The position numbers and the translations under genes are program-made. The notes beneath the pieces were generated by a model. The model was not told the DNA's origin, made no database searches, and saw nothing but the letters and a program-made list of their open reading frames with translations. A stretch of 64,000 bases of DNA from Rhodospirillales bacterium (GTDB lineage: Bacteria; Pseudomonadota; Alphaproteobacteria; Rhodospirillales; WMHbin7): positions 1-64,000 of the forward strand of contig JACRPC010000038.1 in assembly GCA_016214125.1 (NCBI GenBank). Reading direction: 5' to 3'. Below are positions 6,533 to 50,285 of this stretch, piece by piece. Position 1 is the stretch's first letter. Each line of letters begins with the position of its first letter.

Positions 6533-9034
6533 CTATCCTCGCCTCTTGGCGTGCCGGGTGGGCCGTGCGGCCAGCGGGTCCTCGGGCCAGGGATGCTTGG
6601 GATAGCGGCCGCGCATTTCCGCCCGCACCTGGGGATAGGCGTTGGCCCAGAAGCTCGCCAGATCGGCGGTCACCGCCAAGGGCCGCCCGGCCGGCGAGAG
6701 AAGATGAAGGGCGATCGGCACCGCGCCCTCGAGAAGCGTCGGGCTGGTCCGCTGCCCGAACATCTCCTGCAGCTTGACCGCCAGCACCGGCGTTTCGCCC
6801 GTGCCGTAATCGAGCGCCAGACGCGAGCCCGAGGGCACGTCGAGATGGCTGGGCGCCAAGCGCTCGAGCTGGCGCGCCCGGTCGCGGTCGAGCCGCGCCC
6901 CCAGCGCCGCCGCCAGATCGATTTTCGCCAGATCGGCGGCGCGGGTGACGCCCCAGAGATAGGGCAGCAGCCAGGCGTCCAGAGATTCGAGCAGGGCGTC
7001 GTCCGACAGATCGGGCCAGCCCTGGCCGGGCCAATGCCGGGCGACGAAGCTTACACGCGCCCGCCAGCGTTCCAGATCGCGCGTCCAGGGCAGGGCCGCC
7101 AGACCCAGCTTGCGCACCCCGTCGAGCATCGCCTGCGCCTGGGCCTGGGGATCGGGATCGGGCAAGGGCTTGTCGTCCAGCACCAAGGCGCCCAGCTTGC
7201 GGGTGTGGCGCGACAAGACCGCCCGCTCGCGTTCGCTCCAGGCGATGGCCGACTGGGTCTTGATGTGCGGGGCGAAATCGCTTTCCAAGGTGGCGCGGTC
7301 GATCGGCGCCGCCAGGAAGATGCGGGCCTCTTGCGTCTTGCCGTCGAGATCGGCGGCGACCAGAAACTCGCACCCCGCCAAGGGGTCTTCGGGCGCCAGA
7401 CGGGCGCCGCGCCCATTGGCCAGACGGAACTCGCCATGACCGCCGCGCCGCTGGCCGATGCGGTCGGGATAGGCGAAAGCGAGCAGGCGGCCCGTCTCCT
7501 CGGCCGAACCGCCTTCGTCGTCGCCGATGCCGGCCTGACGGCGCAGATCGCGCGCCTGGGCCTTGATGCGTTGCATTGCCTCGCGGCGGACCGACGCCCC
7601 GGCCGGCCGTTCGGCCCGCCGATCGGCGATCAGCTCCAGGCGCAAGCGCAGATCGGCCTCGCGCACCCCGCTTAGGATGTCGCGCTCCGACAGCAGCGCC
7701 GCCAGATCGCAGGCCAGCCCGCCCAGCCCCAATTGCTGGCCCCGGCGCACCATATGGGCCAGACGCGGATGGAGCGGCAGCGCCGCCACGGCGCGGCCCT
7801 CTTGCGTGATCCGTCCGGCTTCGTCCAAGGCGTCGAGATCGCCAAGCAGGCCCACGGCCTGGGCGTAGGCGCCGGCGGGCGGCGGATCAAGCCAGGCCAG
7901 CCGGGCGGGATCGCTTTCACCCCATTGCGCCAGTTCGAGCGCCAGGGGGGCAAGATCGGCCTGGCGGATCGCCGGCGCGTCGAAAGGCTCCAGCGCCCGA
8001 TCCTCGGGCTCGGTCCACAGCCGGTAGGCGACGCCCGGCTCCAACCGGCCGGCGCGGCCGGTGCGCTGCTGGGCGGCGGCCTTCGAGACCTTGACGGTCT
8101 CCAGGCGGGTGAGGCCGGAATTGGGATCGAAGCGCGCCACCCTCTTGGCACCGCCATCGACCACCAGCCGGATGCCCTCGATGGTCAGGCTGGTTTCGGC
8201 GATGGTGGTGGCGAGCACGATCTTGCGGCGCCCCGGGGCCGCCGGCTTGATAGCGCGTTCCTGCTCGTCGAGCGAAAGCTGGCCGTAGAGCGGCGCCAGT
8301 TCGGCATCGGCGGGCAGGCCGCGTTCGACCAGCCGCTCGGCCACCCGGCGGATTTCCCCCTCGCCCGGCAGGAAGGCGAGCAGACTGCCCGGCTCTTCGG
8401 CCAGGGCGCGGCGGATCAAGGCCGCCATCTCGTCCTCGAAGCGGCCTTTGGGGGTCTTGTCCAGATAACGGATTTCGACCGGGAACTGCCGGCCCAGGGC
8501 CCGGATCAGGGGCGCGCCACCCAGAAGCCTCGCCACCGCCTGGCCATCCAAGGTGGCCGACATGACCAGGAGCCGAAGATCGGGCCTGAGCGCTTTTTGC
8601 ACCTCAAGGCAAAGGGCGAGGCCAAGATCGGTGTCGAGCGCCCGCTCGTGGAACTCGTCGAAGATCACCAGCCCGACGCCCGCCAGTTCGGGATCGGATT
8701 GCAGGCGCCGGGTCAGAATGCCCTCGGTCACCACCTCAAGCCGGGTTTCCCGAGACACCTTGCGCTCGAGCCGCACCCGATAGCCCACCGTAGCCCCCAG
8801 CGGTCGGCCGCTGCCCTCGGCCAATCGCGCCGCCACCAGCCGGGCGGCCAGCCGGCGCGGTTCGAGAAGCAGTATGGTCCGCTCGCCCAGCCAGGGCTGG
8901 TTCAACAGCGCCAGGGGAACGCGGGTGCTCTTGCCCGCACCGGGCGGCGCCTCCAGCACCGCCGATCGGCCTTGGGCCAAGGCCCCGACCAGATCGGCGA
9001 GAACGGAATCGACCGGAAGCGGCGTGGCATTCAT
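6533..9034 (-). CDS. hrpB: ATP-dependent helicase HrpB
   Basis: A DEAH-box helicase of 833 residues, the normal HrpB length. Near the N-terminus are Walker A APPGAGKST, motif II DEFH (IFDEFHERALD), motif III MSATLDG and the helicase-C motif QRTGRAGR, followed by the HA2/ratchet region and the HrpB-specific C-terminal domain (ALDYGTGETPVLAVKLQEMFG). HrpB proteins are presumed RNA helicases with no settled bacterial role. The ATG gives the canonical start just before the Walker A segment. The gene stands alone; 65 bases separate it from the reductase upstream. Confidence 0.95.
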   Translation of the reverse strand: MNATPLPVDSVLADLVGALAQGRSAVLEAPPGAGKSTRVPLALLNQPWLGERTILLLEPRRLAARLVAARLAEGSGRPLGATVGYRVRLERKVSRETRLEVVTEGILTRRLQSDPELAGVGLVIFDEFHERALDTDLGLALCLEVQKALRPDLRLLVMSATLDGQAVARLLGGAPLIRALGRQFPVEIRYLDKTPKGRFEDEMAALIRRALAEEPGSLLAFLPGEGEIRRVAERLVERGLPADAELAPLYGQLSLDEQERAIKPAAPGRRKIVLATTIAETSLTIEGIRLVVDGGAKRVARFDPNSGLTRLETVKVSKAAAQQRTGRAGRLEPGVAYRLWTEPEDRALEPFDAPAIRQADLAPLALELAQWGESDPARLAWLDPPPAGAYAQAVGLLGDLDALDEAGRITQEGRAVAALPLHPRLAHMVRRGQQLGLGGLACDLAALLSERDILSGVREADLRLRLELIADRRAERPAGASVRREAMQRIKAQARDLRRQAGIGDDEGGSAEETGRLLAFAYPDRIGQRRGGHGEFRLANGRGARLAPEDPLAGCEFLVAADLDGKTQEARIFLAAPIDRATLESDFAPHIKTQSAIAWSERERAVLSRHTRKLGALVLDDKPLPDPDPQAQAQAMLDGVRKLGLAALPWTRDLERWRARVSFVARHWPGQGWPDLSDDALLESLDAWLLPYLWGVTRAADLAKIDLAAALGARLDRDRARQLERLAPSHLDVPSGSRLALDYGTGETPVLAVKLQEMFGQRTSPTLLEGAVPIALHLLSPAGRPLAVTADLASFWANAYPQVRAEMRGRYPKHPWPEDPLAARPTRHAKRRG

Positions 9035-9099
9035 CCTAGAGCCGCGCCCGGCGAGGGCGATTGATAAGCGCTAGCGTGATGCCGATACTCTGCATCACC

Positions 9100-10164
9100 T
9101 TAGCGCGCACGTTCGTACTGCTTGGGCCAGGCGATCTTGTCGCCCAGAACCCGCGCCGCCCGCAAAGGCCAACTCGGATCGCGCAACAGCTCGCGGCCCA
9201 GGCTGATGGCATCGGCCTGGCCGGTGCGCAGCACATGCTCGGCCTGGCTGGGCTCGGTGATCATCCCCACCGCCGAGGTGGGGATGTGGGCGCGGGCCCG
9301 CAGGGCGGCGGCGAAGGGGGTTTGGAAACCCGGCCCGACCGGAATCTTGGCGTCGGGGACGTTGCCGCCGCTCGAACAATCGATCATATCGATGCCCGCT
9401 TCCTTGAGCGCCTGGGCCAACGCCACCGACTGTTCGAGATCCCAGCCGCCCTCGACCCAATCGGTGGCCGAGATGCGCACCATCACCGGCCACTCGGCGG
9501 GCCAGGCGTCGCGCACCGCCTTGGCGACCCGCAGGGGCAGACGCATCCGGTTGGCGAGCGGGCCGCCGTAATCGTCGCTCCGCCGGTTGGAGAGCGGCGA
9601 GAGGAACTCGTGCAGCAGATAGCCGTGCGCCATGTGGATCTGCGCCACCAGGAAGCCGGCTGCCAGCGCCCGCTTGGCGGCGGCCTCGAAGGCGGCGACC
9701 ACGGCGTCGATCTCGGCCTCGCTCATGGCGCGCGGCACCGGATGGCCGGGGGCGAAGGCCAGCGCGCTGGGAGCGATGGTCGGCCAGCCCATGGGCTCGC
9801 CGGGCGGACGGGGCTGATTGCCGTCCCAGGGCGCGGCCACCGACGCCTTGCGCCCGGCATGGGCAAGCTGGATAGCCGGCACCGCGCCTTCCTGGCGGAT
9901 AAAGGCGACGATCGGCTTCAGGGCCTGGAGCTGGGCGTCGTTCCAAAGCCCCAGATCGTGGGCGCTGATCCGCCCCTCGGCCGTCACCCCCACCGCCTCG
10001 GTGATCACCAGGCCGGCGCCGCCGGTCGCCCGGGCGCCGTAATGGACCATGTGCCAAGGGCTGGCCACGCCATCGGTGGCCGAGTACTGGCACATCGGCG
10101 CCATGAAAATTCGGTTGCGGATTTCCAGCTTGCGCAGCACCAGGGGCGTGAAGAGAAGGCTCAT
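9100..10164 (-). CDS. namA: Old-yellow-enzyme-type NADPH:flavin oxidoreductase (NamA/YqjM-like)
   Basis: A 354-residue FMN-dependent ene-reductase that would reduce activated C=C bonds with NAD(P)H. It starts with the FMN barrel strand MAPMCQYSATDG, whose Cys matches the regulatory Cys of YqjM/XenA enzymes. It then has QLAHAGRKAS (ligand-binding histidine region), HMAHGYLLHEFLSPLSN, RRSDDYGG and the C-terminal SLGRELLRDPSWPLRAA. The physiological substrate cannot be deduced. Its neighbours (hrpB, and a divergent TPR lipoprotein) give no pathway hint. Confidence 0.9.
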   Translation of the reverse strand: MSLLFTPLVLRKLEIRNRIFMAPMCQYSATDGVASPWHMVHYGARATGGAGLVITEAVGVTAEGRISAHDLGLWNDAQLQALKPIVAFIRQEGAVPAIQLAHAGRKASVAAPWDGNQPRPPGEPMGWPTIAPSALAFAPGHPVPRAMSEAEIDAVVAAFEAAAKRALAAGFLVAQIHMAHGYLLHEFLSPLSNRRSDDYGGPLANRMRLPLRVAKAVRDAWPAEWPVMVRISATDWVEGGWDLEQSVALAQALKEAGIDMIDCSSGGNVPDAKIPVGPGFQTPFAAALRARAHIPTSAVGMITEPSQAEHVLRTGQADAISLGRELLRDPSWPLRAARVLGDKIAWPKQYERAR

Positions 10165-10282
10165 CGTTTGGCTCCGGCTTTGGCGATCGGGGCGCCACTA
10201 TGGCAAACCCGCCTGCCCCCTGGCGAGCCGGAAATTTCGCCTTCCCTGTGGCGCCGGCCGCCGCTTCTGGCATAATCGGCCG

Positions 10283-11032
10283 ATGCGCACGCGACCGCTT
10301 CCCCTTCTGACCCTGCTCCTGGCCCTGGCGGCCTGCGAGGCGGTCGATCCCGACCGGCTGCCCTCGTCGGCCATCGATCCCACCCTCCGGGAAGCGGTGG
10401 CCGAGGCCGAACAGGCCCAGGATTACATGGCGGCCGCCAACTATTACCGCTCGCTCTTCGAGCGCAACCCCACCGATCTGGCGGTGGTGCTGCCCTATGC
10501 GCGCAGCCTGCGGCTGGTCGGTTTGTGCGAGGAATCGCTTGAGGTGCTGACGCCGCTGGTCGAGGTCAATCCCAAACACACCGCCCTGCTCTTCGAGATG
10601 GCGAAGAACCAGATCGGCGCCGCCAAGCCGGCCGAGGCCGTCGTCACCCTGAAGGGGCTGGTGGGGCTGGACAAGCGGATGTGGGAGGCCTGGTCGGCGC
10701 TGGGCGTCGCCCACGATTATCTGGGCCAGAACGCCGAAGCCCAGGAAAGCTATTTGCACGCGCTGGCCATCGCGCCCGAGAATCCGGTGGTGCTCAACAA
10801 TCTGGCGCTCTCCCAGGCCCGCACCGGCGCCCTGCCGATCGCCATCGCCACCTTGGAGCGCGCCGCCAAGAATCCGCGCGCCCGCGCCCAGGTGCGCCAG
10901 AACCTGGCGATGCTGCTGGCCCTCAGGGGCGACTCCGGTGCCGCCGAACGCCTGGTCCGTCAGGACCTGCCCACCGACATCGCCTTGCGCAACGCCGCGA
11001 TCTACCGCCTGATCGCCAAGCCCAATCCATGA
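10283..11032 (+). CDS. TPR-repeat lipoprotein (TadD-like)
   Basis: 249 residues. The N-terminus is a lipoprotein signal with lipobox LALAAC (Cys about residue 17), so the mature protein should be membrane-anchored. The rest is helical tetratricopeptide repeats (around residues 38-70, 73-105, 140-175, e.g. WSALGVAHDYLGQNAEAQ and PVVLNNLALSQARTG). It resembles TadD, the TPR lipoprotein of tight-adherence pilus systems, but no tad/cpa genes are in the window. The ATG at 10283 sits directly before the signal sequence. Its stop overlaps the start of the SUMF1-domain gene (ATGA), so the pair is co-translated. Confidence 0.75.
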   Translation: MRTRPLPLLTLLLALAACEAVDPDRLPSSAIDPTLREAVAEAEQAQDYMAAANYYRSLFERNPTDLAVVLPYARSLRLVGLCEESLEVLTPLVEVNPKHTALLFEMAKNQIGAAKPAEAVVTLKGLVGLDKRMWEAWSALGVAHDYLGQNAEAQESYLHALAIAPENPVVLNNLALSQARTGALPIAIATLERAAKNPRARAQVRQNLAMLLALRGDSGAAERLVRQDLPTDIALRNAAIYRLIAKPNP

Positions 11033-22732: not shown

Positions 22733-23164
22733 ATGGCGCGGCTGGATTGGGACGACACCTTCTCGGTGGGGGCGGCGATGATCGATCAGGATCACCGCCG
22801 GCTGTTGGGCGAACTCAACCGCTTGGCCGAAACGGTCGATCGCGGCGACACCAAGGGCGCCCGCGACGGCTTCGATTCCCTCTTCGAGGCGATCTTGCGC
22901 CATTTCGAGCGCGAGGAGCGATTCCTGCTGGCCCACCGCTATCCGGACGTCGAGACCCACCACCGCACCCATGCCTTCAAGGCCGAGCAGATCCTGACGG
23001 CGCGCGACCTGTGCGCCGCCCGCCTTGCCCATGGCGAAGGCCAAGAGGTGGTCGATTATCTGGTCGAATGGTTGGAGCGGCACATCCGGGTCGAGGACAT
23101 GGAATATGCCCGCTTCCTCGCCCGTCTGCCGCCCGCCTCGGCCCGGCCGGCATTGGCGAATTGA
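22733..23164 (+). CDS. Bacteriohemerythrin
   Basis: A 143-residue four-helix O2-binding protein with a di-iron centre. All expected ligands are visible: IDQDHRRL (His), HFEREERFL (His and Glu), DVETHHRTH (His pair) and ERHIRVEDMEY (His and Asp). Single-domain proteins of this kind are common in magnetospirilla and other microaerobes and may deliver or sense oxygen. The ATG follows GGGGACGGTC, an acceptable ribosome-binding site. It is monocistronic. Confidence 0.92.
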   Translation: MARLDWDDTFSVGAAMIDQDHRRLLGELNRLAETVDRGDTKGARDGFDSLFEAILRHFEREERFLLAHRYPDVETHHRTHAFKAEQILTARDLCAARLAHGEGQEVVDYLVEWLERHIRVEDMEYARFLARLPPASARPALAN

Positions 23165-43331: not shown

Positions 43332-43431
43332 TGTGGAATCCGTCGGCACGGGTCTTCTAGCCGGAAATTGACTCATGCTATGGTCGCCCACTTCATTCTT
43401 GTGCATCACCGAGGCGAACGATCTTAAAGGC

Positions 43432-45144
43432 ATGAATACGACCGCCGACCCAGCGCCCCCGACGGCGATCGACTGGACCACCCAGCGTCTGCTGATCCTC
43501 GACCGCGACGATCAGTTCCGCTTTCTGGCGCGCACCGTGTTCCAGCGCAAGAAGCCGCGCGAGGTGCTGAGCACCGCCTCGCTGGCCGAGGCCGTGCTCC
43601 ACATGACGTCGACCCCGGTCAACCTATGTCTGGTCGGCTTTACCGAGACCGAGACCAGCGGGCTTGAATTCCTGCGCTGGCTGCGCGACGGGCGATCGAG
43701 TCCCAACGCCAAGACGCCGGTGGTGGCGCTGACCGAATCCACCAACGGCCGCTTCCTGGCCGGCATCTGCAAGCTGGGCGTCGAAGGCCTCTTGCGCAAG
43801 CCTTTGTCGGAAGACGGGCTGATGCGCCGAATCACCAACATCATGAGTCAGCCGCGCCGGATCGTGATCGGCGAAGGCTATGTCGGGCCGGAGCGCCGCG
43901 AGGGCGATCCGGCTGCGCCCGCTCCGGCGCCGGCGCGCCGCAAGGACGACAAGACCGAAGTTGCCGACAGCGCCAGCGCCTTCAACAAGACGCCAAGCGA
44001 AGGCAAGCCGCCAGATTCGGTTTTTCCCTCTTCGACCAAGCCTTCGCCGCCGGCCGCGCCGCCCGTGCCCTCGGTTTCCCCGAGGCCCGGCGCCGCGTCG
44101 CCCGCAGCCGCTCCCAAACCGGGCGGCGCCGCCTCGGCGCCGCGCGGCGTGGTGCTGAAGTCGCCATCGCCCTTCAAGGCCGCCGCACCCAAGCCAGCCA
44201 ATGGCGGCACCAAACTCGATTTCGAGGGTGAGGCACCCCTGCCACCGGCCAAGCCCGCCGCCACCGGCAAGCTTGATTTCGAACCCCCGAGCGCCCCAGC
44301 CACCCGCACGCCGCCCGCCGCCACGGCCACCGCGGCGCCCAAACCGGTTGCCGCCGCCCCTGCCCCCGCCCGGCCTCCGACGCCGCCGGTTGCGCCACCC
44401 GCCCCACAAGCCGCCAAACCGACAGCGCCGCCCGCCCCACCACCCGCCACCCCGCCCTCGGCGCCACCCATGGCGGCGGCGCCCGCCGCTCCACCCAAAC
44501 CGATGCAAGCGGCGCCGGCCAAACCCGTGCCCGCGCCGGTGCCGATGGCGGCGCCGGCGGCGGCCGCTCCCCCTGCGTCGGCAGAGCCGAAATTCAATCT
44601 TGCCCAGGCGCTCGACGACCACGGCAAATGGGTCCGTTCGCGTGGGCTGGAAGGCAAGCGCGCCGTCTTCGAGGGCCTCGACCTGTCGGGTGAGGAGTTG
44701 TCGGGCGCCATCCTGACCCAGGCCGACATGCGCCGGGTGATCCTGGCCGGCGCCAAATGCCTGGAAACCGCCTTCGACGGCGCCGATCTGCGCTATTCCG
44801 AATTGACCGGCGCCATTCTCAACGAAGCCAATCTCGCCGTCACCCGCCTGCGCCACGCCCAATTGCCGGGCGCCGTGCTGGATGGGGCCAATCTGCGCGG
44901 CGCCGATCTGTCGGGCGCCAATCTGCGTGGCGCCAGCCTGAAGGGCGCCAGGCTGCATGGTGCCATCGTGCTTGACGCCCAGATCGCCGGCGCCGATTTC
45001 ACCGGCGCCGAGGGTCTGGTGCCTGCCCAGGTCGCCAAGATGAAGGGCGACGCCACAACCATCCTGCCCGCCGGTCTGCGGCTCAACTTGCCCGACGACC
45101 CGGCGCAAGCCAAATCACCGCCGAGCGCCCCGGAAGGACCTTGA
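43432..45144 (+). CDS. Pseudo-receiver, proline-rich linker and pentapeptide-repeat protein
   Basis: 570 residues. Residues about 18-140 have a receiver fold, but where the phospho-Asp should be the sequence is NLCLVGFTETETSGLEFLRW, so phosphorylation is unlikely. Residues about 165-385 are extreme Pro/Ala low complexity (PAPARPPTPPVAPPAPQ). Residues about 410-550 are pentapeptide repeats of the A(D/N)LxG type (GANLRGADLSGANLRGASLK), which fold as a right-handed beta helix. No signal peptide. This looks like a protein-interaction scaffold linked to motility by location. I recognise no characterised homologue. Confidence 0.75.
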   Translation: MNTTADPAPPTAIDWTTQRLLILDRDDQFRFLARTVFQRKKPREVLSTASLAEAVLHMTSTPVNLCLVGFTETETSGLEFLRWLRDGRSSPNAKTPVVALTESTNGRFLAGICKLGVEGLLRKPLSEDGLMRRITNIMSQPRRIVIGEGYVGPERREGDPAAPAPAPARRKDDKTEVADSASAFNKTPSEGKPPDSVFPSSTKPSPPAAPPVPSVSPRPGAASPAAAPKPGGAASAPRGVVLKSPSPFKAAAPKPANGGTKLDFEGEAPLPPAKPAATGKLDFEPPSAPATRTPPAATATAAPKPVAAAPAPARPPTPPVAPPAPQAAKPTAPPAPPPATPPSAPPMAAAPAAPPKPMQAAPAKPVPAPVPMAAPAAAAPPASAEPKFNLAQALDDHGKWVRSRGLEGKRAVFEGLDLSGEELSGAILTQADMRRVILAGAKCLETAFDGADLRYSELTGAILNEANLAVTRLRHAQLPGAVLDGANLRGADLSGANLRGASLKGARLHGAIVLDAQIAGADFTGAEGLVPAQVAKMKGDATTILPAGLRLNLPDDPAQAKSPPSAPEGP

Positions 45145-45608: not shown

Positions 45609-47663
45609 GTGTTTCAATTCCTGAATAATGTCCGGATCGGAATCCGGGTCGCGGTGGCGCTTCTGATTCCGGTGGCCGGTTTGGTCGCCTTTTCCGGTTA
45701 TATCACCCTTGACCGATTGACGACCTTGCGCGAGATGGCGCGGCTGCAAACCGCGGCGCGGCTGGCGCCGGTGATCAGCGTGCTCGTGCATGAGCTGCAG
45801 AAGGAACGCGGCACTTCGGCCGGCTTCCTCGGCGCCAAAGGCCAGAAATTCGGCGATCGCCTGGTCGAGCAGCGCAAACTGACCGATCAGACCAACGCCG
45901 CCTACACCCAGGCGCTGGCCGATCTCGACGCCCGCAAGCTCGGCACCGCCTTTTCCGCCCGCCTCGACACCGCCGGCCAGATGCTTGGTCAATTGACCGA
46001 GCGGCGCGCCAAGATCTCCGACCTCTCTTTGCCGGCGGTCGAATCCGCCGCCTACTACACCGGTACCATCGCCCGCCTGCTCGATCTGGTGGCCGACATG
46101 GCCGCCATGAGCACCGATTCCCGCATGACCAGCATGATCACCGCCTACACCAGCTTCATGCAGGCCAAGGAACGGGTGGGGCTGGAGCGCGCCATGGGCT
46201 CGAACGCTTTTGCGTCCGGCAAGTTCGCCCCCGCCATCTACAAGCGCTTCGTCGAGGTGGGTGCCGAGCAGGACAGCTTCCTGTGGACCTTCAACGCCTT
46301 CGCCTCCGACGGGCAACGCCAGGCCTACAAGGCGACGGTGGCCGGCCGCGAGGTCGACGAGGTGGCGCGCATGCGCAAGATCGCCCATGACAGCCCGCAG
46401 ACCAACGATATGGGCGGCATCTAGGGCCCCTATTGGTTCGACACCATCACGGTCAAGATCAACCTGATGAAGAAGGTCGAAGACGGCATTGCCGCCGACC
46501 TCGGCGGCTTGGCCAACGCCATCGAGGCCGGCGCCAAGCGCGGCTTCGCCCTCACCCTGGGCCTTGCCGGCCTGTTGCTGGCGCTCACCATCCTCTTGGT
46601 CGGACTGATCGTGCGCGGCATCACCCGGCCTCTGGGCGGTCTCACGTCGGACATGGGCAAGCTGGCCGGCGGCGACAAATCGATCGCCATCGAGCAGGCG
46701 GCGCGCGGCGACGAGATCGGCGACATGGCCCGTGCGTTGCAGGTCTTCAAGGACAACATGATTCGCGCCGAGCGCCTGGAAGCCGACGCCCATGCCGAGC
46801 AGGAAAAGCAGCTCGAACGCGGCCGGCGCCTGGAAGCGGTTACCCATGCGTTCGAAGAGAAGGCGGAAGCGCTGGTGGCGCGCGTCGCTCAGGCGACCGA
46901 AAGCATTCTGGTCACCGCCCGCAAAACCGCCGAACGCTCGGAGACCAGCGGCAGCCGGTCGCTGGAGGTGGGCGAGGCGATCGGCGAGACCAATCAGCGG
47001 GTGGAATCGGTTGCCACCGCCACCGCCGAACTGTCGACCTCGATCAACCGCATCGCCGAAAAAGTCGGCCATTCGAGCGCCATCGCCGAGCGGGCGGTGG
47101 CCGGCGTCGAACACACCACCGAACAGGTGCGCGGCCTGTCGACCGCCGCCCAGCAGATCGGCACCGTGGTCGGCCTGATCAACGACATCGCCGGCCAGAC
47201 CAACCTGTTGGCGCTCAACGCGACCATCGAGGCCGCCAGGGCCGGCGACGCCGGCAAGGGCTTTGCCGTGGTCGCCAACGAGGTGAAGAGCCTGGCCAAT
47301 CAGACCGCCAAGGCCACCCAGGACATCACCGCCCAGGTCGAGGCGGTGCAGAAGGCGACCGAAGAGGCGGTGGGGTCGATCGCCGGCATCCGCGACGTGG
47401 TGATCGAGATGAGCGATGTCGCCCGGTCGATCGCCGCCGCCATTCAGGAGCAGGAATCGGCGACCGGCGCCATTTCCAACAACATCGGCGGCGTCGCCGA
47501 GCAGGCGCAACGGGTGGCGAAGAGCGTGGGCAGCGTCGCCCGATCCTCGGCCATGTCGTGCGGCGGCTCGATCAACGTCATCTGGTCGGCCAGGGAATTG
47601 GCGACCACCGTGCATGACCTTGAAGCGGAAATGAAGACGTTCGTCACCGAAGTGAACGCTTAG
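45609..47663 (+). pseudogene. NIT-domain methyl-accepting chemotaxis protein interrupted by an in-frame TAG
   Basis: Without the stop this is one 684-residue chemoreceptor: TM1 (about 10-30), a nitrate/nitrite-sensing-type NIT domain (about 45-275), TM2 (about 315-340), HAMP (RGITRPLGGL), then the signalling domain with the hairpin tip NDIAGQTNLLALNATIEAAR. A TAG at 46422-46424 (codon 272) cuts it between DMGGI and GPYWFDTITVKINL. Both halves are in the same frame and read as continuous homologous sequence. A GTG start at 45609 follows GGGAGG. The 5' half would give a 271-residue sensor stub; an ATG at 46467 could start the signalling half. A recent nonsense mutation, amber suppression or a sequencing error all fit. 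Confidence 0.8.
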
Positions 47664-47694: not shown

Positions 47695-47997
47695 ATGAAC
47701 TATACGATGAAAAACGCCGGCAGTGCCGTCGAGATCACCATGCGGGGCAGTTTCACCTTTTCCGACAACGAATCCTTCCGCGATCTGGTGACCCTGGTCG
47801 GCAAGGGCGAGATGAAATCTTACCGGCTCGACGTGGCCGGCCTGGATTTCATCGATTCGGCCGGGCTGGGCCTGCTGGTTCTGATCAAGGAGGCGGCCGA
47901 TCGGTCGCGCGTCGACATCCGGCTGCAAGGCGCCCAGGGCCAAGTGCGCAAGATGCTCGACATCTCCCAATTTGCCGAGGTCATCCCCTACGATTGA
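47695..47997 (+). CDS. STAS-domain anti-sigma factor antagonist
   Basis: A 100-residue SpoIIAA/RsbV-type protein: VEITMRGSFTFSDNESFRDL and LDFIDSAGLGLLVLIKEAAD, where the DSAGLG Ser is the phosphorylation site. Dephosphorylated, it would sequester the kinase-type anti-sigma factor encoded next. It follows the chemoreceptor and begins a three-gene partner-switching unit. Confidence 0.9.
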   Translation: MNYTMKNAGSAVEITMRGSFTFSDNESFRDLVTLVGKGEMKSYRLDVAGLDFIDSAGLGLLVLIKEAADRSRVDIRLQGAQGQVRKMLDISQFAEVIPYD

Positions 47998-48003
47998 CCT
48001 CCG

Positions 48004-48765
48004 ATGTTCGGCTCGGCCTTCTTCGACGGGCTGGCGCCCGGTCTGATCCAGGGCCTGCGGCGCCACGCCCTCGAGCCCTTCGGCGGGCCCGATCTTGCCC
48101 AGTCGATTCTGCGCCTGCGGCCCCGGCAGGCGGCCCGGCCGGTCGTTGCCCTGATCGACTGGACGGCCCAATTCGAGCCCATCGATCTGGCGGCCCTCGG
48201 CATCGATTGTTGCCTCGATACGGGCTTGAGCGAATTTCCGCCCAGCCTGGAGGTGGCGCTGGCCGGCACTGAGGACGGTGTCGCGGCCGCCCTGACCACC
48301 TTGACCGCCTACCGGCGCGACGTGGCCCAGGATTTTCTCGACTGGACGGTCCAGCGCGGACCGCGGCTGTCCGAGGACCATCGCGTCATCCTCCGCCAAG
48401 CGATGCAGGAAGCCCTGGCCAACGCCGTGCTGCATGGCAATCTTGGCCTACGCAATTTGCAGTCGGTTTCGGTGGAAAGCTATGCCGACTATCTGGGTTT
48501 GATCCAGGAGCGTTTGGGGGTGCGGCTCTATGCTGGACGACCGGTGGTGCTTGCCGCGCGCTGGCACGACCGGCACCTGACCCTCGCGGTCGAAGACACC
48601 GGCCGCGGCTTCGATCTCGCCCGCTCCATGAAGGCGGTGCCCGCCACCGCGCGGGGCGGGCGGGGCCTGGCGATCATTCATGGCCTGGCCGACCGCGTTC
48701 GCCTGTTCAACGAGGGACGGCGGATCGAAATGGAATTCGCGCTCGGCCGGGACGGCGCGGCATGA
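48004..48765 (+). CDS. RsbW-type ATPase (anti-sigma factor/serine kinase) with N-terminal extension
   Basis: 253 residues. Residues about 125-250 are a GHKL ATPase of the RsbW/SpoIIAB kind: MQEALANAVLHGNLG (N-box), VEDTGRGFD (G1) and RGGRGLAIIHGLADRV (G2). The first 110 residues are an extension, perhaps a partner- or target-binding part. It should phosphorylate the STAS protein upstream and bind a sigma factor or other target not in the window. Its stop overlaps the phosphatase gene (ATGA). Confidence 0.85.
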   Translation: MFGSAFFDGLAPGLIQGLRRHALEPFGGPDLAQSILRLRPRQAARPVVALIDWTAQFEPIDLAALGIDCCLDTGLSEFPPSLEVALAGTEDGVAAALTTLTAYRRDVAQDFLDWTVQRGPRLSEDHRVILRQAMQEALANAVLHGNLGLRNLQSVSVESYADYLGLIQERLGVRLYAGRPVVLAARWHDRHLTLAVEDTGRGFDLARSMKAVPATARGGRGLAIIHGLADRVRLFNEGRRIEMEFALGRDGAA

Positions 48766-50285
48766 ACGAGTCCCGGCCGATTCCTCCAGGCGGGTCCCGG
48801 ACCGGGCAGCCCTTCGAGCGGTTCGGCCATGGCATCGTCGTCGCCGTCGCCATCGTCGCCGCGCTTGGCCTAACCTTCCTCACCTATCTGCAAGCCGTCG
48901 AGCAGGAGCGCAACGTTCTGGCCCAGAACGAGCGCACCGTGGCCAAGTTTGCCAAGTCGGTCGACGAAAGCCTGGACGTCATCATGGTCACCGGCAACGC
49001 CGACATCGCGCGCGCCTTTGCCGACACCATGAAAACCCTGCCCGACATCGTCGATTTCCGGTTCTTCCGCCAGGACGGCCTCGAAGCCTTTCGTGACAAC
49101 ACGGTGATCGACGCGGTCAACCGGCGCTTGGGCGAGAACCGCTACGACCGGCGCAACGAACGCGGCCTGCCGCCCCGCGTTCTGGCCGTCGACGATCCCC
49201 ATCTTCTTGGTGTGCTCAAGACCGGCGAGGCGACAACCTATTACGAGCGCAGCCCCGAGGGCTCGCGCCTTTACACCATCCTTTGGCCGATCGATGAACA
49301 CCCGCCTTGCCTGCGCTGCCATGGCGAGCCGACCGGCATTCCCGGCCTGATCAAAATGACCTTTTCGCTTGCCGCCCTCGAAGCCGACATCGCCAAGGCA
49401 CGGACCTCGTCGATTTTCATCATTTTGCTGGTGATCGCCGCCATGATCGCCGTCGCCTGGGCCATGGTGCGCATGCAAAAGCGCCAATTGCAGGCCGATG
49501 TCGAGGCCTATCGCAAGAGCCTGGCGCGCGAGCTTGACGAGACCCGGGCCTTGCAGCAGCGCCTGCAGGAGGAATTGCTGCCCTCGCCGGCGGTGCTGGA
49601 GACGCTCGACGCCGATTTGGGCTTGGCGATCGGCGGCCAGGTCGAGATGGCGGAAACGATCGGCGGCGATCTCTGGGGCGTGCAGCCGCTTGGCGCGCAT
49701 CGCGTCGCGCTGTTCGCCGTCGATTTCTCGGGCCATGGCGCCCAGGTGGCGCACAACGCCTTTCGCTTCCAGACCCTGCTCCGCGAAACCGCCAATCTGC
49801 ACGACGATCCCGGACTTCTGCTCACCGCCTTGAACAGCCATCTGGTGACCATCTTGCCGCGCGGCCAGTACGCCGCCATGTTCTACGGCGTGCTCGATTT
49901 GGCATCCGACACCCTGGTCTATGCCGGCTGCGGCTATCCGGCGGTGCTGATCGGCCATCGCGGCGGCGGACCGGTCGCCATCCACCCGGTGCGCGGCCTG
50001 CCGCTTGGCATCAAGGCTGGCATGACCTACAGCGCCACCCGGCTGGCCTTTCCCGCCAACTCCTATCTGCTGGTTCACAGCGACGGCGCCATCGAATGCG
50101 CCCGCATCGACGGGCGGCGGATGGACAGCCCGGACATCGCGGCGCTTTTGGCGGCCTGCATGGAGCGCCACGGCACGCCCGCCGCCTTCATGGATTGTCT
50201 GGAGCCCTATCTGGTGCGGCCCCTGGCCGACGACCTGACCCTGGTCTGGGCCACCCGCGCCAAGAAAGTTCGTATCGACGATTGA
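48762..50285 (+). CDS. Membrane PP2C (SpoIIE/RsbU-type) phosphatase with CxxCH haem sensor
   Basis: 507 residues: TM1 (about 24-46), extracytoplasmic DUF3365-like sensor (about 50-205), TM2 (about 213-236), coiled linker (about 240-272) and the phosphatase (about 285-500). The sensor ends with PPCLRCHGEPTGIPG; CxxCH is a c-type haem attachment site, so a redox, NO or O2 signal is plausible. Phosphatase metal residues: GGDLWGV, VDFSGHG, HSDGAIE and ADDLTLVW. It would dephosphorylate the STAS protein and switch the partner-switching unit. Confidence 0.87.
   Translation: MNESRPIPPGGSRTGQPFERFGHGIVVAVAIVAALGLTFLTYLQAVEQERNVLAQNERTVAKFAKSVDESLDVIMVTGNADIARAFADTMKTLPDIVDFRFFRQDGLEAFRDNTVIDAVNRRLGENRYDRRNERGLPPRVLAVDDPHLLGVLKTGEATTYYERSPEGSRLYTILWPIDEHPPCLRCHGEPTGIPGLIKMTFSLAALEADIAKARTSSIFIILLVIAAMIAVAWAMVRMQKRQLQADVEAYRKSLARELDETRALQQRLQEELLPSPAVLETLDADLGLAIGGQVEMAETIGGDLWGVQPLGAHRVALFAVDFSGHGAQVAHNAFRFQTLLRETANLHDDPGLLLTALNSHLVTILPRGQYAAMFYGVLDLASDTLVYAGCGYPAVLIGHRGGGPVAIHPVRGLPLGIKAGMTYSATRLAFPANSYLLVHSDGAIECARIDGRRMDSPDIAALLAACMERHGTPAAFMDCLEPYLVRPLADDLTLVWATRAKKVRIDD

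Follow-up and report, generated by a model that had tools for sequence, protein, structure and literature searches.

A partner-switching gene unit with a predicted c-type haem sensor on its phosphatase, inside a motility cluster of a Rhodospirillales bacterium

Cache domains which bind haem have been described as the sCache_heme family (Deshpande et al., February 2026 preprint, PMC12889525), in which the helix with the CxxCH motif follows strand 3 and precedes strand 4. The outputs named for this family are histidine kinases, MCPs, GGDEF/EAL proteins and nucleotide cyclases; SpoIIE/PP2C outputs are unmentioned in the text (PMC12889525). Redox/NO/CO binding is described for the family, and its signalling member binds NO tightly and has no stable O2 complex (PMC12889525). 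In GSU0935, a haem c sensor of Geobacter, Met60 is the distal haem ligand and is displaced by NO and CO (PMC8396549). Partner switches have been studied in Pseudomonas aeruginosa (SiaABC(D) and HsbR/HsbA) and in Rhodobacter capsulatus (RbaV/RbaW/RbaY). The component families of the locus which we describe here are already known; what is new is its combination of input and output.

We have studied a window of 64,000 nucleotides from a Rhodospirillales bacterium. In positions 47695-50285 we have confirmed the three genes of a partner-switching unit, which code for a STAS protein, a SpoIIAB/RsbW-type kinase and a membrane PP2C phosphatase. Their tight order, noticed in an earlier note made from the sequence alone, is borne out by the coordinates and Pfam matches (Table 1) and by the spacing: STAS and kinase are separated by a gap of 6 bp, kinase and phosphatase overlap by 4 bp (ATGA). 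The same note placed the unit inside a motility cluster, and indeed it is surrounded by flagellar and chemotaxis genes: CheA, CheR, FliI, FliJ, FlhG, FlhA, a sigma-54 activator, FliN and FliG. Immediately ahead of both receptor and switch, positions 43375-45144 code for a receiver domain with a long Pro/Ala-rich linker and pentapeptide repeats.

Table 1. Position of the partner-switching genes, of the adjacent chemoreceptor and of the predicted haem-site residues in the window
Feature	Position	Strand	Evidence
NIT half of the upstream chemoreceptor (nitrate/nitrite-sensing)	45609..46424	+	PF08376 E 1.1e-55; ends at in-frame TAG
Rest of this chemoreceptor (HAMP and signalling half), in frame past the amber codon	46425..47663	+	HAMP 2.8e-07, MCPsignal 1.1e-33
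STAS antagonist protein, 100 aa	47695..47997	+	PF01740 2.4e-12
GHKL serine kinase, SpoIIAB/RsbW type, 253 aa	48004..48765	+	PF13581 (HATPase_c_2) 4.2e-14
Membrane PP2C/SpoIIE phosphatase with predicted periplasmic c-haem Cache sensor, 507 aa	48762..50285	+	SpoIIE 5.4e-30
Sensor module of the phosphatase (TM1, Cache, TM2; residues 21-236)	48822..49469	+	AlphaFold, WalK and GSU0935 matches
Met75 codon, candidate distal haem ligand	48984..48986	+	Invariant 104/104; aligned with GSU0935 Met60
CLRCH, predicted covalent haem c site, His187 proximal ligand	49308..49322	+	C, C, H invariant 104/104

The phosphatase has the sequence HPPCLRCHGEP in residues 180-190 (C183, C186, H187). The CxxCH motif lies between two predicted transmembrane helices (residues about 23-43 and 216-236), so that the sensor should be periplasmic, which is where haem c is attached. 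We have found CxxCH in 108 of 110 homologous sensor ORFs, that is in all the 108 complete ones; the other two are truncated or frame-broken. Met75 and the C, C and H of the motif are invariant in all 104 homologous sensors which were aligned, and a chance occurrence of CxxCH is rejected on these grounds. The earlier note had read PPCLRCHGEP as a CxxCH haem site and had named its lack of conservation in orthologues as a refutation. The opposite was found, and the site stands as a prediction from sequence. The genome also encodes CcmF, a protein of cytochrome c maturation.

The AlphaFold model of the sensor (pLDDT 88.5) has a Cache fold, in which the CxxCH helix (161-167) is found between strands 149-156 and 175-182, the third and fourth ones. 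Its best structural matches are the Cache domains of WalK (Z 13-15) and GSU0935 (Foldseek E 1.1e-4). With the Pfam profile PF11845 (Tll0287-like) the sensor, which is divergent, reaches 20.0 bits, under the cut-off of 24.1. A profile of 15 homologous sensors matches two Geobacter haem c sensors, GSU0582 (E 2.4e-06) and GSU0935 (0.0033); in the profile alignment Met75 coincides with Met60 of GSU0935 (3b42), numbered by counting from His144.

By analogy with these proteins a redox or gas input is likely, and the published members favour redox, NO and CO over O2 (PMC12889525, PMC8396549). Control by redox or by a gaseous ligand, as proposed in the earlier note, is a well-founded prediction; O2 is less favoured, since the published signalling sCache_heme protein has no stable oxy complex (PMC12889525). 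Among the COX1-type matches in the genome no NO reductase was recognised. For Desulfovibrio DcrA there are reportedly O2 and redox data, which keep O2 sensing possible.

The PP2C output sets this sensor apart from its relatives. Two diguanylate cyclases of the same genome carry homologues of the sensor (38% and 34% identity), as do 17 chemoreceptors in the order; homologues are also found in 49 named loci and in the phylum sample. The outputs of the 110 sensor ORFs are GGDEF in 67, MCP in 20 and histidine kinase in 4, with 18 unassigned or truncated; only one, that of the window, is PP2C. None of the 49 named loci, which were obtained with a closer alignment, has a PP2C output. The full-length phosphatase was also searched for in three overlapping samples, from the order (297 genomes), the class (385) and the phylum (397): apart from the query itself, matches cover either the sensor or the phosphatase, never both. 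Among about 1,000 distinct genomes the window protein is the only one which joins sensor and PP2C in one match. No relative of the whole phosphatase turned up in the named genomes, and plasmid records gave matches to the PP2C domain only. In these genome samples the fusion is rare; since it has been seen once, it is not checkable by conservation.

In the phylogenetic tree the window sensor is nested among cyclase sensors, with support 96/88 and a long branch (0.91). The closest paralogue of the phosphatase domain belongs to a unit on contig C19 of the same genome (41%). As the sensor nests among those of cyclases, the simplest reading is a domain shuffle, by which a cyclase-type sensor probably came to the phosphatase. 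Other sensors of this type are present in the genome. On contig C12 (locus L028, positions 7429-9237 and 9143-10864) there are two tandem HAMP-GGDEF proteins, each with the same CxxCH sensor; a PAS domain is recognised in the second one, and a gene for an ABC-transporter ATPase adjoins the pair. Two more CxxCH proteins on contigs C38 and C48 (L006 and L007) are above the PF11845 cut-off, which brings the proteins with haem c Cache-type sensors in this genome to five or more. A paralogue, L027, passes PF21563.

The active-site motifs of phosphatase, kinase and STAS protein are complete. The SpoIIE/PP2C domain scores 105 bits, with a cut-off of 25, and its metal-binding motifs GGD, VDFSGHG, SDG and ADD are all there; Pfam detects no HAMP domain between sensor and PP2C output. 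The STAS protein (47 bits with PF01740) has the sequence DSAG in residues 54-57, in which S55 is the predicted phosphoserine. The D-S motif is also present in the listed STAS neighbours of related kinase loci. The kinase has a predicted SpoIIAB/RsbW-type fold, that of a GHKL protein with N-box Glu/Asn and glycine boxes: residues E136, N140, D198, G200, G202, G219 and G221 (N-box, DxGxG, GxG) are invariant in 21 relatives. Residues 88-248 match SpoIIAB (VIA-align Z 12-13), RsbW (12), Leptospira LvrC (14.7) and SiaB (9.4). Ahead of the ATPase domain the kinase has a divergent N-terminal extension, to which the earlier note gave 110 residues. It is real, with about 90-100 residues, but it is not peculiar to this protein: the relatives also have divergent N-terminal extensions, and the C19 paralogue has a clear receiver domain. 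A receiver-like fold has been considered for the extension; in the predicted model residues 1-80 have mostly low confidence.

Altogether we consider it fairly probable that these genes form a partner-switching module, with a phosphatase controlled by a periplasmic c-type-haem Cache sensor. The architecture, the catalytic residues, the conserved residues of the haem site and the operon layout can be read in the sequence. The scheme which we infer adds haem binding, its ligand, the direction of the effect, the phosphosite and the target. After export, C183/C186 would bind haem c covalently; His187 would be its proximal ligand and Met75 probably its distal one. A change in haem redox state, or the displacement of Met75 by NO or CO, would send a signal through TM2 and a coiled-coil linker to the cytoplasmic PP2C domain, which would then alter the removal of phosphate from STAS Ser55, against the kinase. 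The phosphorylation state of STAS may in turn determine its binding to the kinase or to another target. The gene context suggests a target in chemotaxis or motility. Three candidate outputs compete: STAS might act on some regulator, like RbaV (PMC3999984), on the chemotaxis machinery, like CheS (PMC12654446), or on a sigma factor.

The chemoreceptor which precedes the unit has some bearing on this question. Its frame ends 31 bp ahead of STAS; it is interrupted by a single in-frame TAG (46422-46424) and is otherwise open to the end. The amber codon is found in a variable column of the alignment with homologous receptors, which have no such break (685 aa in L229 and L211); judging from the sequence it may be either a genuine stop or a mistake in the assembly. 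The earlier note had mentioned a broken nitrate-type receptor next to the unit, which is correct, given the NIT domain and the single TAG, but understated, as a receptor recurs directly upstream. In the order, STAS is directly upstream of the kinase in 44 of the 64 kinase loci. A chemoreceptor is found directly upstream of STAS in 26 of the 42 STAS-kinase loci which can be judged, all of them related by descent and not independent events. The distance from the stop of the receptor ORF to the STAS domain is mostly 14-62 bp. The receptors have sensors of type NIT (in the window, L211, L229, L235, L236 and L245), sCache_2 and others. In contig C19 of the same genome the order MCP-STAS-kinase-phosphatase is repeated. 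Since the arrangement recurs across the order, the receptor is not a mere neighbour. We have found no description in the open-licence literature of a link between partner switching and chemoreceptors in such a recurrent operon.

Several loci show related arrangements. In L218 (4153-7605) a NIT chemoreceptor and one STAS gene face a separate STAS-kinase-PP2C unit on the opposite strand, so that receptor and STAS can be paired independently of the kinase. On contig C24 of the genome of the window (L045, 4487-6613) a paralogous unit of STAS, kinase and receiver/PP2C is found near a large molybdopterin-oxidoreductase-like gene, identified by eye; it is possibly a second link of partner switching to respiration. 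Genes which by eye are hemerythrin-like are found near partner-switch units of other genomes, in L213 (9764-10186) and L226 (684-1133 and 2179-2595). A similar ORF of the window (22733-23164) is distant from its switch.

The switch might act on the chemotaxis machinery and not on transcription: STAS would bind CheA or the receptor array, like CheS of Sinorhizobium, and haem-dependent phosphorylation would tune the co-transcribed receptor. We regard this as a tentative possibility. It agrees with the adjacency of chemoreceptor and STAS in those 26 loci with diverse sensor types, against a baseline of 49 MCP domains in the 732 kb which the loci cover, and CheS, which is encoded in che clusters of alphaproteobacteria and consists of STAS only, does bind CheA (PMC12654446). 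However the argument from the loci is one of adjacency alone, many kinase loci have no receptor, the loci share descent and the receptor of the window has an amber stop. It is quite unlikely that chemoreceptor, STAS, kinase and phosphatase work as one unit, in which the phosphorylation of the STAS serine, set by haem redox state or NO, tunes chemotaxis toward nitrogen oxides.

A target in chemotaxis is as plausible as sigma control. The earlier note had suggested a sigma/anti-sigma pair. The kinase would be the anti-sigma factor and STAS would free a sigma factor for flagella or stress, on the model of SigB/SpoIIA or HsbR/HsbA-FlgM; we find this unlikely. It is true that the kinase fold is nearest to SpoIIAB, RsbW and LvrC, and that PA3347 binds FlgM in Pseudomonas (PMC8256260). 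However no FlgM was found with PF04316 in the genome, which is 98.9% complete and might have a divergent FlgM; this result argues against the Pseudomonas HsbA route. There is no sigma gene in the unit, and in R. capsulatus, the closest studied alphaproteobacterial system, a cognate sigma for RbaW was sought and not found (PMC3999984), so that the suggestion is unsupported. The haem site might also be vestigial, if the sensor, once taken over from a diguanylate cyclase, came to respond to another signal or to none. The long branch within the cyclase sensors and the single occurrence of the fusion would agree with such a loss, but every ligand residue is kept and the frame is open with a high GC3, which makes it very improbable. 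The module with a haem-controlled phosphatase is the reading which we prefer. If it is true, haem c sensors outside the cytoplasm have serine-phosphatase signalling as a further output, and redox or NO becomes a concrete input, open to testing, for the partner switches of Gram-negative bacteria. Through the recurrent chemoreceptor-STAS-kinase operon, a connection of partner switching with chemoreceptors can likewise be put to the test; this linkage is the part most worth following up.

The sensor resembles sCache_heme (DUF3365/Tll0287-like; GSU0582/GSU0935; Pfam Mcp40H-20_sensor) by its predicted periplasmic Cache domain between two TM helices, by a CxxCH helix which in the predicted model separates strand 3 from strand 4, and by a candidate distal Met as in GSU0935. 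It differs by its PP2C output and by having no HAMP. SiaABC(D) of P. aeruginosa (PMC7647112) also has a membrane PP2C with two TM helices, a GHKL kinase, SiaB, which matches the structure of the kinase described here, and a small antagonist. However SiaA has HAMP and another sensor, and the output is the cyclase SiaD; our unit has neither a GGDEF gene nor a SiaC-type protein. HsbR/HsbA (PA3346/PA3347) of the same species is also a partner switch tied to motility, but HsbR is a soluble response-regulator phosphatase/kinase which acts via FlgM, a protein not detected here. RbaV/RbaW/RbaY of R. capsulatus (PMC3999984) is an alphaproteobacterial set of STAS, kinase and phosphatase with no sigma identified; it governs the production of gene transfer agent and viability in stationary phase, and is not described as haem-sensing (PMC3999984). 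CheS of Sinorhizobium meliloti acts on CheA/CheY1 and is not described there with a dedicated kinase/PP2C pair (PMC12654446), but like the STAS protein of the window it is a STAS-only protein encoded among the chemotaxis genes of alphaproteobacteria.
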